Both the position numbers and the translations under genes were made by a program. This document shows, one piece after another, positions 25,527-30,698 of a stretch of 35,822 nt of DNA. The notes beneath the pieces are model-generated. The model had not been told where the DNA came from and searched no databases. It saw only the letters and a list, made by a program, of their open reading frames with translations. This DNA is from Nocardioidaceae bacterium (lineage in GTDB: Bacteria > Actinomycetota > Actinomycetes > Propionibacteriales > Nocardioidaceae). Position 1 is the stretch's first letter. Each line of letters opens with the position of its first letter. Location of the stretch: positions 1-35,822 of the forward strand of contig JACCZI010000151.1 of assembly GCA_013696015.1 (NCBI GenBank), in the 5' to 3' direction.

Positions 25527-26738
25527 TCAGCTGAAGCGTTCGAGTGCCAGCACCTGGAGCTCGCCGAGGCCGAAGCCGAGCACGGCACCGACGGTGATGA
25601 GCCGCCATTCGTCGGCCTGGAAGGCCGGTCGGATCAGCTGTTCGAACTCCTCGTCGGTGAGGTCGTCCATCTTGCGCACCAGAGTTGCCTTGATGTCGAG
25701 CGCCTCGGCCGTGTAGTCCTCGACGTACGCGAGCGTCTCGGGCAGCCGATCCATGACCCGGTCGGCGACGGCGGTCTTGATGTCCTGGAACCGCGAGGTC
25801 CCGACGGCCAGGACGACCAGCGGTCGGGCGACGCCGGTCTGTGCGTCGACGGCCCGCTGGACATGCCGCTGCACCAGAGCGAAGACCCGGTCGGCAAGCG
25901 GGCCGTGCAGCAGCGCCTCGAACAGGTGGTGCGGCGTGATGAGCTCGCGGGCGATCAACGCCGCATACTGCTCGGCGACATGGTCGCGACGGCGTAAGAA
26001 GAGGCCCTGCCACCGCACCAGGCCGAACCCTCGGGGACGCTTGGGATAGAAGATCAGCTTCAGTGCCAACCAGTCGGTGAACCACCCGGTGAAAGCGCCG
26101 AACAGTGGCAGGATCCACGGGTTGTGGGTCAGTGCCCACGCGATCGCCTGGATGCATCCGATAATGAAGCCGAACCAGATGCCCGACCGGGCGATGAAGC
26201 GGAACTCCTCGTCGCCTGCCTCGGCGAAGATCCGGTTGAGCAGGTGCTTGTCGCGCACCAGGTTGGTCACGACCATCGTCTTGAGGTCGAAGACTTGGTC
26301 CACGTCGGCGCGGATGTCGCGCAGCAGGTCGGCTATGACGTCGGGCGCCTCGGCCTGGATCCGCCGGATCAGCCGGAGGCGGGCGGCCTCCGGCAGGGAC
26401 TCCCACAGCCCCGGCTGGAACTCTGCCATCACCTCGCGGGTGATCTCGTCGACCACCGACAGCAACGGCCCTTGGAGCTCGGCGGCGACCTTGGTCGGGT
26501 CGAGGCGTTCGAGGATGTCACCCGGCCCGATCAGCCGGGTGGTGATCAGGTCGCAGGCGACCGCCGCCATCCGCGCGGCGCGCCGCGGGATCACACCCTG
26601 CCAGCCGAAGGGTCCCCAGCCGCGGTACTCGAGCGGCTCGAACATCATCTTGATCGCGGTCAGCTTGGTGAGGTAGCCCACCAGTGCCATGAACAGCGGC
26701 ATGGCGGCATAGACCCACCAGCCGTCGGGCAGCATCAT
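25527..26738 (-). CDS. DUF445 family membrane protein
   Basis: ALVGYLTKLTAIKMMFEPLEYRGWGPFGWQGVIPRRAARMA and GAFTGWFTDWLALKLIFYPKRPRGFGLVRWQGLFLRRR (duplicated DUF445 signature). Confidence 0.9.
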   Translation of the reverse strand: MMLPDGWWVYAAMPLFMALVGYLTKLTAIKMMFEPLEYRGWGPFGWQGVIPRRAARMAAVACDLITTRLIGPGDILERLDPTKVAAELQGPLLSVVDEITREVMAEFQPGLWESLPEAARLRLIRRIQAEAPDVIADLLRDIRADVDQVFDLKTMVVTNLVRDKHLLNRIFAEAGDEEFRFIARSGIWFGFIIGCIQAIAWALTHNPWILPLFGAFTGWFTDWLALKLIFYPKRPRGFGLVRWQGLFLRRRDHVAEQYAALIARELITPHHLFEALLHGPLADRVFALVQRHVQRAVDAQTGVARPLVVLAVGTSRFQDIKTAVADRVMDRLPETLAYVEDYTAEALDIKATLVRKMDDLTDEEFEQLIRPAFQADEWRLITVGAVLGFGLGELQVLALERFS

Positions 26739-26740
26739 CG

Positions 26741-27556
26741 TCAGGACTCGTGGGTGGTGTGCGTGCTGCGCAGCGGGCGCTGCGGCGTCGAGCAGCTTTC
26801 CCACAGGTCGTTGCCCAGCGTGCTCAGTCGCAGGCTGCGTCGCACGATCCGGCTGTGCGAGCCGGCGTCGATCTGGGCTCGGCGCACAACTGCCTCGGTG
26901 AGCAGGATCTCGTATCCGTCGGCGAGCGCGTACGACTCGGGGCCAACGCTGACCAGCTGCAGCTGTTGGAGGTGGGTGACATAGGCGGGCACCCAGTCGG
27001 GCAGCGACACTCCCGCCGCGCGGCCGACGCTGGAGGCGTTCTCGAGCACGACGGGACCGGTCATGCCGAGCGTGCCTCGGGTCGCGACACAGATGACCGG
27101 GTACTGAGTGCCGTCCGACAACGCCGCCAGGATTCGTGCCTCGTCGGGATGCAGCTGGCCCAGCAGCTGCATGAACCAGCGGGAGCGCGCCTGCTGCGCG
27201 GACTCCTCGATCGAGGTGGTCAGCAGCTGCGCCAGGAGCTGCCTCGGTGCGTCATCGTCGGCGCCGTAGCCGGCGGCCGGGTGCCCGACTGCCGCCGTTC
27301 CTGTGGCCGCGCTCATGCGGGTGCGCAGCTCGCGCCACACCAGGGTCTCGACCCGGGACAGCTCCCGCTCGGTGAAGTCGAGCGAGCTGGTCATCCCCGG
27401 TGTGCGTTTCAGCGCCGCCGACGCCAGGCCGAGCAGGGCACCGAACCGGGACGGCCGCGGTTCTGTCGACTCCGCCGGGAGCAGGGGAGGTCGGGGGGCG
27501 GCCTCGGGCTCGGTAGGCGGCGAAGCTGCGGGGTCGGCTGCGGGCTCGGTCGACAC
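26741..27556 (-). CDS. Abi-alpha (DUF4393)-like protein
   Basis: RSRWFMQLLGQLHPDEARILAALSDGTQYPVICVAT...YVTHLQQLQLVSVGPESYALADGYEILLTEAVVRRA; likely GTG start VSTEPAADP. Confidence 0.55.
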   Translation of the reverse strand: MSTEPAADPAASPPTEPEAAPRPPLLPAESTEPRPSRFGALLGLASAALKRTPGMTSSLDFTERELSRVETLVWRELRTRMSAATGTAAVGHPAAGYGADDDAPRQLLAQLLTTSIEESAQQARSRWFMQLLGQLHPDEARILAALSDGTQYPVICVATRGTLGMTGPVVLENASSVGRAAGVSLPDWVPAYVTHLQQLQLVSVGPESYALADGYEILLTEAVVRRAQIDAGSHSRIVRRSLRLSTLGNDLWESCSTPQRPLRSTHTTHES

Positions 27557-27588
27557 GGCCCGAGTATGGCTGATGCGATGGCTGATCC

Positions 27589-27608
27589 ACTCAGCGATTA
27601 CTCTGAGT
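27589..27608. promoter_or_regulatory. Inverted repeat, candidate operator in the divergent intergenic region
   Basis: ACTCAG-cgattact-CTGAGT, perfect 6-bp arms. Confidence 0.4.
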
Positions 27609-27702
27609 ACAGGTTCTAAAACAATCTGTGTCGAGCAGGTGACAGAATCAGGACCGGTCAGCCATACTGGGCTCACGTTGCTGCGTGTCACGGAGGGTGC
27701 TC

Positions 27703-27915
27703 ATGATGAAGCGCTTGGCTGCCATTGCCGCTGCCTCCGCGCTGGCCGGAGCGGCCTTCTTCGGGTCAGGCTCGGCCCCAGCATCCGCTGGCAACTCCTG
27801 GGAAGCACACCCCGGCACGGCGGTGCAGGCCGCTGGCAACTCGTGGGAGCTGCGCGGCAACTCGTGGGAGCTCCACGGTAATTCCTGGGAGCTCCACGGT
27901 AACTCCTGGGAGTGA
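27703..27915 (+). CDS. Secreted 70-aa preprotein with tandem GNSWE(LH/LR) repeats
   Basis: MMKRLAAIAAASALAGAAFFGSGSAPASA|GNSWEAHPGTAVQAAGNSWELRGNSWELHGNSWELHGNSWE; Sec signal with ASA cleavage site; SD-like GGAGGG 5-8 nt upstream of ATG 27703/27706. Confidence 0.85.
   Translation: MMKRLAAIAAASALAGAAFFGSGSAPASAGNSWEAHPGTAVQAAGNSWELRGNSWELHGNSWELHGNSWE
27835..27912 (+). repeat. In-frame 21-bp tandem repeat (GGC/T AAC/T TCG/C TGG GAG CTG/C CGC/CAC), 3 full units plus 15 nt
   Basis: Units start at 27835, 27856, 27877 and 27898 (partial); an isolated fifth GNSWE copy is at 27790-27804. Confidence 0.95.
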
Positions 27916-30698
27916 CCCCCAGCGAGGCGACTACCGGCGCTGACGGCCCTGCTGATCGGGCCGCGGAATGGCGCGTCGTCGCGTACGTCGCGACCCTCCT
28001 GCTGGGCACCGTAGCAACGGTCCTGGCCGGCCTGACGTGGGACCTGGTTCCGCCCGGCAACGGGCCCTGGTTAGGGCTGCCTTTCCTCGCGGCGGCCCTG
28101 GTCGCAGCCGAACAGCTTCGGATCCGCTATCGGCGCGGCAGTGATGTCGACGCGATCACGCTCTTCGAGGCGGTGCTCGCACCGCTGCTTTTCACCTTCC
28201 CACCGCATGTTGTCGTGGTCACGGTCGCCATCTCCCAGGCCATAACCGCGGTGCTGCGACGAACGGTCTGGATCAAGGCAGCGTTCAACATCTCGATGTG
28301 GTCGCTGGCCGCTGGGGTCGGCAGCCTGGTGCTCGGCCTGCTGGTGCGTGAGTCTGGCGCCACGCTGGAGTCGCTCGGCTTCCTCGTGATAGCGCTGGCT
28401 GCTGTCGCCGTGGTCAACAACACCGCCTTCACCGTGGTGCTCGCCATCAGTGGCCGGCAGTCACTGACCTCGGTGCTGCGAGGGCTGGCGCCGATCATCG
28501 TGCCGGGCTGGATCGGCGGCTGGCTGGTCAACCTGCTGATGGGCCTGCTCTTCGTGCTCGCCGACGCCGGCCACCCGATCGCAGTGGTGCTTTTCCCCAT
28601 GCCGCTTGTGGTGCTGCACCTGGCCTACAGGGGCTACGCGTCGGCGCGGACCGACCGCCGTCGGCTGACCGGCCTTCGGGCGGCGGTGACCGCGCTCTCC
28701 GAACCGTTGCGACCGTTCGATGCGATCGACGACTACCTGTGTGAGGTCGTCCGCGGCTTCGAGTCACGCGCCGCCGCGCTGGTGGTCCTCGACGAGACCG
28801 GCGAGTACGACACGTACCTGCTGGCGCCACCCGCCAGCACTGCGGAGGAACGTCAGACGACGCCGCTGGAGCGGACCCTCGCGAACGCTTCGGAGCCGAC
28901 ACGCGTGGCGGCGACCGATGGGCACCCGCTAGCCGCGAAGCTGGCCGATGCCGGTTGGCGCGAGTGTCTGTGCGCACCGCTCGTGGACGAGCACCGCCGC
29001 CTCGGCGTCCTGATCGTCTACGACCGGACTGGTCTGGAAGGCACTGCCACCGCCGACCTGGTGGTCCTGGAGGCGCTTGCCCGCGAGACGGCGCACACCT
29101 TGGCCCGCGGCCGCCTGTTCGAAAGCGTCCTTGAGGAGCGGCGCAAGCTCGACCAGATCGTGAGCACGACCTCCGACGGCATCTTCACCCTCGGTGAGGA
29201 TGGGTCCGTCCTGAGCTGGAACTCCGCCTGTGAGCAGATCACCGGCCTGACCGAGGCCGCCGTACTCGGTCAGCGCGACACTATGCAGTGTCTGGAGGCG
29301 CGAACCACCGCGGGCTCGCGCGTCGACTTCTCCGGCTGGGCCGCCGACCCCGCGCTGCCGCACGACATCGTGATCACGACGCTCCGAGGGGCTCACCGCC
29401 GGTTGTCCTGCTCGACAAGCCCGGCCGCCGACGTCGACGGACGCAGCGAGACACTCGTGGTCGTCGCCCGAGACATCACCCCGGTCGAGGAGCACGAGGA
29501 GCTGCGCGAGCAGCTCAGCCGGCTCGCCGAGGCACAGGCTGCCCAGCGGTTGGTGGTCGACCACCTGCAGAAGGCGGTGGCCCCGGAACCACCGGAGATC
29601 GAGGGTGCAGACCTCGCTGTCAACTACGTTGCCTCGGACCCCTCGTCCCCAACCGGGGGTGATCTCTACGACTGGCACCTGCTGCCCTCGGGCGAGCTGC
29701 ATCTGGCGGTCGTGGATGTGCTGGGCCATGGCGTGGCGGCGACCAAGGCGGCGCTCACCGTCGTCCACACCTTGCGCTTCATCGCGGTCGAGGGCACCCC
29801 CCTGGACCGGGTCGTCGCCCGCGCGGACTCGCTGCTGAGCGCGCAGGACAGCGACCTGGTGGCAACTGTCGTCGTGGCCCGGTACAACCCCGCGACAGGG
29901 GACTTGCGGGTCGCGTCCGGCGGCCACCCTCCGGCGCTCGTTGTCGGCGCCGATGGCGAGGTCACCCAGATCGCGGCGACCGGAGGCGCGATCGGCTGGC
30001 CGGCGGTGGGCAGCGACAACGTGGTGACGGTGCGGCTTCGCATTCACGAGTCGCTGGTGCTGTACACCGACGGCTTGATCGAAGCACGCAAGGACATCCT
30101 CGAAGGCATGGACTCCCTTGTTCGCCATGCCAGTGAGGTGGCGTACCTGCCCGCGCACCGGCTCGCCGAAGAGCTCGTCGACCGAGCCCTGTCGGGTGCC
30201 GACCGGCGCGACGACAGCCTGGCGTTGGTGTTGCGCCGAACTCGCGTCCGGGCCCGACCAGAGCGGATGCGGTGGTGCAGCGACCCGGCTGACGCCGCTG
30301 CCGTCAAGAGCGCGCGGCGCGGGCTGCTCGAGTGGCTCACCAACGAGGGCCGGGCCGCCGACGACCCGCTGCTGGTGGCCTCGGAGCTGCTCGCCAATGC
30401 GGTCAACGTGGCGCGGGACTCGGTGGTGTTGACCGCCGAGCTCTTGGACGGGCTCGTCGTCCTCGAGGTCTCCGATGACGGCCCCGGCGATGCGAACCTG
30501 GACTCGCGCGGTCGACGTCTGCCGGACGCCGACAGTGAAGCGGGCCGCGGTCTTTTCCTCGTGCGTTGTCTCAGTGAGCAGGTCACGATCCTGAGCACCA
30601 CGGAAGGCACCGTGATCCGGTGCTCGGTCGCGGCACGGCGACGGTCCGCGGCCACCGACGGCGCGTCGGCGGGTCGCCTCGTCGGCCCCGGCCGCTGA
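27912..30698 (+). CDS. Membrane sensor with GAF-, PAS-, SpoIIE/PP2C- and HATPase-like regions (phosphatase / anti-sigma kinase type regulator)
   Basis: Multi-TM N-terminus (aa ~20-240), GAF-like region, PAS-like LDQIVSTTSDGIFTLGEDGSVLSWNSACEQITG, PP2C GDLYDWHLLPSGELHLAVVDVLGHG...LYTDGLIEAR...RRDDSLALVLRR, HATPase SELLANAV/VSDDGPG/GRGLFLV; GTG start overlaps upstream stop (GTGA). Confidence 0.9.
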   Translation: MTPSEATTGADGPADRAAEWRVVAYVATLLLGTVATVLAGLTWDLVPPGNGPWLGLPFLAAALVAAEQLRIRYRRGSDVDAITLFEAVLAPLLFTFPPHVVVVTVAISQAITAVLRRTVWIKAAFNISMWSLAAGVGSLVLGLLVRESGATLESLGFLVIALAAVAVVNNTAFTVVLAISGRQSLTSVLRGLAPIIVPGWIGGWLVNLLMGLLFVLADAGHPIAVVLFPMPLVVLHLAYRGYASARTDRRRLTGLRAAVTALSEPLRPFDAIDDYLCEVVRGFESRAAALVVLDETGEYDTYLLAPPASTAEERQTTPLERTLANASEPTRVAATDGHPLAAKLADAGWRECLCAPLVDEHRRLGVLIVYDRTGLEGTATADLVVLEALARETAHTLARGRLFESVLEERRKLDQIVSTTSDGIFTLGEDGSVLSWNSACEQITGLTEAAVLGQRDTMQCLEARTTAGSRVDFSGWAADPALPHDIVITTLRGAHRRLSCSTSPAADVDGRSETLVVVARDITPVEEHEELREQLSRLAEAQAAQRLVVDHLQKAVAPEPPEIEGADLAVNYVASDPSSPTGGDLYDWHLLPSGELHLAVVDVLGHGVAATKAALTVVHTLRFIAVEGTPLDRVVARADSLLSAQDSDLVATVVVARYNPATGDLRVASGGHPPALVVGADGEVTQIAATGGAIGWPAVGSDNVVTVRLRIHESLVLYTDGLIEARKDILEGMDSLVRHASEVAYLPAHRLAEELVDRALSGADRRDDSLALVLRRTRVRARPERMRWCSDPADAAAVKSARRGLLEWLTNEGRAADDPLLVASELLANAVNVARDSVVLTAELLDGLVVLEVSDDGPGDANLDSRGRRLPDADSEAGRGLFLVRCLSEQVTILSTTEGTVIRCSVAARRRSAATDGASAGRLVGPGR

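Follow-up and report, generated by a model that had tools for sequence, protein, structure and literature searches.

In Agr/Com-type systems, the gene for a small exported precursor lies beside the gene for a polytopic receptor kinase, and the signal diverges between species. Multi-copy pheromone precursors, such as yeast alpha-factor and some Phr peptides, are built from a signal peptide followed by a repeated short motif with variable linkers. On the receptor side, the S-component fold carries the substrate site in known transporters and receptors, and in RsbU/RsbW-type proteins the SpoIIE and HATPase modules act in the partner switching of anti-anti-sigma and sigma factors. The fold of S-components is common to receptors with histidine kinase, GGDEF, EAL and SpoIIE outputs, as published (PMC11109136).

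Here we describe a pair of genes that shares traits with each of these systems, found in a window of 35,822 nucleotides (the whole stretch of DNA analysed) from contig JACCZI010000151.1 of a Nocardioidaceae bacterium; its genome is a MAG-like assembly with 85% completeness, 2.3 Mb spread over 317 contigs. An ORF at 27703-27915 (+) encodes 70 aa, MMKRLAAIAAASALAGAAFFGSGSAPASA|GNSWEAHPGTAVQAAGNSWELRGNSWELHGNSWELHGNSWE*, with five GNSWE copies in a mature part of 41 aa, the fifth ending at the stop codon. Its stop overlaps the start of a receptor gene that the earlier note on this DNA had overlooked; it had also missed where the repeats probably come from, the tail of a secreted subtilase in relatives. 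The features of the locus are as follows.

27639..27668, plus strand: candidate sigma-70-like promoter of the peptide-receptor operon (consensus scan, 9/12 matches; shuffles 0.1; not evidence of function)
27692..27697, plus strand: Shine-Dalgarno-like GGAGGG, 5 nt before the ATG (sequence)
27703..27789, plus strand: predicted signal peptide MMKRLAAIAAASALAGAAFFGSGSAPASA, 29 aa, SPase I type, ASA end (sequence; n- and h-regions alike in homologues)
27790..27804, plus strand: GNSWE copy 1, immediately after the predicted cleavage site (sequence)
27835..27849, plus strand: GNSWE copy 2 (sequence, TRF)
27856..27870, plus strand: GNSWE copy 3 (sequence, TRF)
27877..27891, plus strand: GNSWE copy 4 (sequence, TRF)
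27898..27912, plus strand: GNSWE copy 5, the final five residues; C-terminal W-[ED] kept in 9/9 Nocardioidaceae precursors (sequence, homologues)
27912..27915, plus strand: GTGA overlap of peptide stop TGA and receptor start GTG (sequence)
27912..30698, plus strand: 928-aa receptor, membrane domain-GAF-PAS-SpoIIE phosphatase-HATPase (Pfam; homologues)
27975..28760, plus strand: membrane sensor domain, MASE9-related by sequence, model resembling ECF transporter S-components (sequence, AlphaFold2)
28731..29096, plus strand: receptor GAF domain (Pfam PF01590, 6e-7)
29166..29486, plus strand: receptor PAS domain (Pfam PF08448, 9e-7)
29688..30239, plus strand: receptor SpoIIE (PP2C-type) phosphatase domain (Pfam PF07228, 2e-34)
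30285..30620, plus strand: receptor HATPase_c_2 (anti-sigma-kinase-like) domain (Pfam PF13581, 9e-14)

Like Agr/Com-type systems, the locus sets a small, putatively exported precursor against a polytopic receptor gene, with a signal sequence that diverges between species, but it differs in its predicted Sec signal peptide, tandem copies, phosphatase output, predicted S-component fold and the lack of an adjacent AgrB-like gene: neither an AgrB-like processing protease nor a cyclic thiolactone precursor lies directly beside the pair, whose neighbours encode Abi_alpha, DUF445 and MOSC proteins. The Abi_alpha gene (26741-27691, minus strand; PF14337, 1e-32) is divergent from the pair and adjoins the DUF445 gene (25527-26804). 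With alpha-factor and Phr precursors the peptide shares the layout of signal peptide, repeated short motif and variable linkers, whereas the receptor gene is adjacent and overlapping, the host is bacterial, dibasic sites are not conserved, and the motif also occurs as a subtilase tail. That tail, found in secreted S8 subtilases (Peptidase_S8, T7SS mycosin-like), resembles the window peptide in its layout, its G-x-x-W-x motif and its place in the genome, but the window gene has no protease domain. The receptor is alike in predicted fold and modular outputs (HK, GGDEF, EAL, SpoIIE) to 5TMR-LYT (PF07694) and other S-component-fold receptors of the LytS and YpdA/BtsS type (PMC11109136); it differs in its MASE9-like sensor sequence and in the upstream Trp-repeat gene, a partner that the available passages of that paper do not mention. 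The new element is the genetically linked Trp-repeat partner, S-component-fold receptors with these outputs having already been published (PMC11109136). As for MASE9 (PF20972) itself, the family description consulted contains no partner peptides.

The earlier note had proposed a good Shine-Dalgarno sequence, a signal peptide and a 41-aa mature region with five GNSWE motifs, four of them in a 7-aa register. This description holds: GGAGGG stands 5 nt 5' of the ATG, and the translation agrees with a TRF array (27835-27912, 89% matches) in which the last four copies keep a 7-aa (21-nt) register, with secretion predicted from sequence. The mature peptide is short, acidic and not cationic, and the precursor contains no Cys. 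Neither Pfam nor the sequence itself reveals a Peptidase_S8 domain, the 70 aa comprising only signal peptide and repeats. Pfam and NCBIfam gave nothing above cut-off (best noise a sub-threshold methanol dehydrogenase beta subunit, 0.003), and the literature searched contained no published account of a Trp-repeat/receptor pair and no relevant paper on GNSWE or MASE9, in line with the earlier remark that the family was not recognised.

The five GNSWE cores of the window differ at four codons, all synonymously (GGC/GGT, AAC/AAT, TCC/TCG, GAA/GAG). Across five precursors, with cores chosen by motif pattern and decayed copies such as GNNPE left out, within-precursor changes were 6 synonymous and 0 nonsynonymous against an expected synonymous fraction of 0.19 (P about 5e-5), which supports the suggestion that synonymous-only variation reflects selection on the protein. 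Concerted evolution can also make repeats uniform within a gene, and this counts against reading them as a ligand.

Absence of repeat-bearing homologues from related genomes had been named beforehand as grounds for rejecting the family. Eight related Nocardioidaceae genomes carry the same gene in the same place; the window ORF is therefore not a chance occurrence but a real gene. The nine precursors comprise the window, six relatives recovered by peptide or profile search and two (G006 and G026) recognised by reading the region upstream of the receptor; the relatives with names are Nocardioidaceae MAGs. Searching 346 genomes of the family with a profile of the peptide alignment returned the seven known loci, followed by signal-peptide noise. 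All nine are small signal-peptide proteins ending in W-[ED]-stop directly upstream of a receptor, and the signal peptide layout (positive n-region, hydrophobic core, AxA-type end) was judged by eye to be present in 9/9. Most precursors keep to a single motif, which changes from species to species: GNSWE x5 in the window, GTSWE x3 in G001, GNDWE x2 in G027, GNDWE x3 plus a decayed GNNPE in G041, GNSWE x3 in G030, GVGWD x2 in G016, GVDWE and GTDWE in G002, and single copies of NGWNWD in G006 and GVSWE in G026. The earlier comparison with multi-copy precursors such as yeast alpha-factor is supported by this uniformity and divergence and by the overlapping receptor gene; the likeness is one of layout only, and two relatives have one copy, so that repetition is not essential, which weighs against a ligand. 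The GTGA stop/start overlap occurs in the window and G001 and is absent from several relatives, and its sequence makes translational coupling of peptide and receptor likely in these two, not in all relatives.

The receptor itself is an RsbU-type SpoIIE phosphatase, with a PF07228 match of 2e-34 and the PP2C metal-binding motifs GGDLYDW, DVLGHG, YTDGLIEA and RRDDSLAL. Its membrane domain has no Pfam match, MASE9 included, whereas 4/8 close homologues of this domain match MASE9 weakly to moderately (best 5e-6). AlphaFold2 prediction of the domain from 16 natural sequences (pLDDT 85.8, pTM 0.79) models it with an S-component-like fold: Foldseek comparison with the PDB placed mostly ECF S-components (RibU, FolT) on top, with prob 1.00 and weak E-values (best 2.5e-3, none < 0.001) and a TM-score of up to 0.71 by target length (RibU), while a negative-control search against viral proteins returned nothing. 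Profile comparison showed the membrane domains of divergent receptors to be homologous to that of the window (99.6%, E 3e-24; 97.4%, E 1e-11). Known S-components serve small molecules, and none is known for pentapeptides, a further point against a peptide ligand.

A search with the window membrane domain for deeper relatives yielded 15 loci. In eight of them (L073, L075-L081; Frankiales, Frankiaceae, Sporichthyaceae, Acidimicrobiia and unclassified actinomycetotal MAGs), and in G032 of the same family as the window, the gene upstream is that of a secreted S8 subtilase whose C-terminus carries a Trp-repeat tail; for L081 only the end of this ORF is visible. Among such partners are subtilases of roughly 600 aa and ones that look active, with D, H and S motifs; those of L073 and L075 are Peptidase_S8 by Pfam. 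Tail motifs include GNSWL, GSRWY, GQSWY, GRNWQ, GYNWE and others, mostly with GAWE, GAWD or GVWN at the stop, and the GYNWE copies of L081 bridge the subtilase and peptide forms. Receptor outputs are SpoIIE-HATPase (L073, L079), HisKA-HATPase (L077) or GGDEF-EAL (L078, L080, L081). Outputs are swapped while sensor and Trp-repeat partner stay, which suggests that the repeats pair with the sensor. At L140, L143 and L145 the subtilase tail is an array of at least 8 almost perfect Trp pentads (GSSWY, GTSWY, GSSWW) that reaches close to the stop codon. Separately, a protein of roughly 270 aa follows the Trp-tailed subtilase at L257, L262 and L263; Pfam identifies that of L257 as a GNAT acetyltransferase, and the next gene at L263 encodes a GGDEF-EAL membrane protein.

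Trp-repeat protein and receptor are paired time and again over much of the phylum Actinomycetota. In a class-wide search, 46/395 genomes contained the membrane domain, and 60 loci were fetched. Scored as at least 6 Trp in 40 stop-free codons, a Trp-rich stretch lies upstream of the receptor in 39/60, compared with 6/60 on the antisense strand and 9/60 downstream in any frame. Where at least 450 nt of upstream sequence were available, 36/53 receptors had such a stretch versus 0/16 SpoIIE genes without the domain (Fisher 6e-7). Several receptors outside this count have small upstream peptides, single- or multi-copy, with a Trp motif or a W-x end, such as (TPGTGWHLI)n, ...AGRRWN, ...DITWN and ...AKWE, and a few show no upstream Trp peptide. 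Beyond the class, all ten assessable loci (of eleven) were paired, nine with Trp-tailed upstream proteins and one with a 49-aa peptide ending in GSTWR. Reciprocally, among 40 further subtilase loci, counted by ourselves, 30 are Trp-tailed and have their downstream side in view; a membrane receptor gene follows 26 of these, once behind a GNAT-like gene, and 0/3 that are tail-less. Partner and polytopic membrane receptor genes are thus conserved side by side, as in a peptide-receptor pair, and this recurrence suggests an undescribed peptide-to-receptor signalling system.

In a midpoint-rooted tree of 29 receptors, the nine peptide-type receptors and three without a peptide form one clade (100/100), with five SpoIIE receptors of the subtilase type next to it. 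Most likely, a tailed subtilase was replaced once, in Nocardioidaceae, by a peptide-only gene reduced to signal peptide and tail; the direction follows from the wide distribution of the subtilase form, given the midpoint root. The peptide gene would then have been lost in genus g22, where no peptide is present in the readable regions upstream of the receptors (L091-L093 and L096; those of L094 and L095 were left out), which also speaks against a ligand.

Certain partners lack a signal peptide and do not fit a simple Sec-exported ligand (L188:443-667, L166 and L183). The first belongs to a second system in the window genome: a leaderless 75-aa peptide (on G000:C86) with tandem DVSHW repeats nearly identical in DNA, just upstream of a MASE9-like-PAS-GGDEF-EAL protein (L188:700-3435). 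L166 (G432:C250) encodes leaderless MSDTK(TPGTGWHLI)3TPGTGWH, of 9-residue period, before a MASE9-like GGDEF-EAL receptor. Before the same receptor class, L156 (G695:C18) encodes a protein that has a signal peptide and (SGSSL/I)n repeats and lacks Trp. A folded solenoid of the pentapeptide-repeat kind was considered for the repeats and rejected; their period varies between systems (5, 7, 9 or irregular), and a linear motif is therefore preferred.

We consider it somewhat probable that the GNSWE gene encodes a minimal precursor, devoid of a protease, whose secreted product is the ligand of the neighbouring receptor. Once exported by Sec and cleaved from its signal peptide, it would place five linear G-N-S-W-E motifs outside the membrane, where the repeat peptide could remain tethered or be released, possibly cut to short GNSWE-containing peptides able to diffuse or to act on the producing cell. 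The S-component-like membrane domain of the receptor encoded downstream would read this ligand, and how active the SpoIIE phosphatase and HATPase modules in the cytoplasm are would depend on its occupancy; this domain content points to a partner-switching output. For the wider proposal, an undescribed Actinomycetota-wide system in which secreted tandem Trp motifs, as subtilase tail or mini-precursor, are the ligand of S-component-fold (MASE9-like) receptors with freely exchanged outputs (SpoIIE phosphatase, histidine kinase, c-di-GMP enzymes), we put the chances as even.

The same pairing evidence would also accommodate a Trp-repeat protein that is retained in the envelope and bound to the receptor, either as a structural partner or as an inhibitor; the receptor would then sense that this protein is cleaved, lost or displaced under stress, and not a diffusible peptide. 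The active-looking subtilase partners suggest proteolysis as the sensed event, and copy number varies freely, but the window form has neither a protease nor an anchor beyond its cleavable signal peptide, and a motif uniform within and divergent between species better suits a recognised ligand; we regard this alternative as doubtful. Trp-rich repeats and secretion, and subtilase tails that could be surface-binding modules, might instead indicate an antimicrobial, adhesin or wall-binding tail, with the receptor regulating or sensing something else in the operon. This is improbable given that the mature window peptide is not cationic, that these receptors do not follow subtilases without Trp tails, and that the pairing holds across changes of output domain. 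That the ORF serves only as a leader coupling receptor translation, its repeats a by-product of DNA slippage, would suit the GTGA overlap and the fairly stable RNA fold of the repeat region (z = -2.6), but is highly improbable in view of the signal peptide kept in 9/9, the synonymous-only core changes, the relatives without overlap and the subtilase that occupies the peptide's place elsewhere.

Few peptide signals were found described for the phylum Actinomycetota. The window version of the proposed ligand is among the simplest forms found, making direct synthesis and testing feasible. If the ligand reading is true, genetically encoded peptides would join small nutrients among the ligands of S-component-fold receptors, there would be an explanation for the Trp-repeat tails that many secreted subtilases carry, and orphan actinobacterial membrane receptors would gain a candidate ligand encoded next door.
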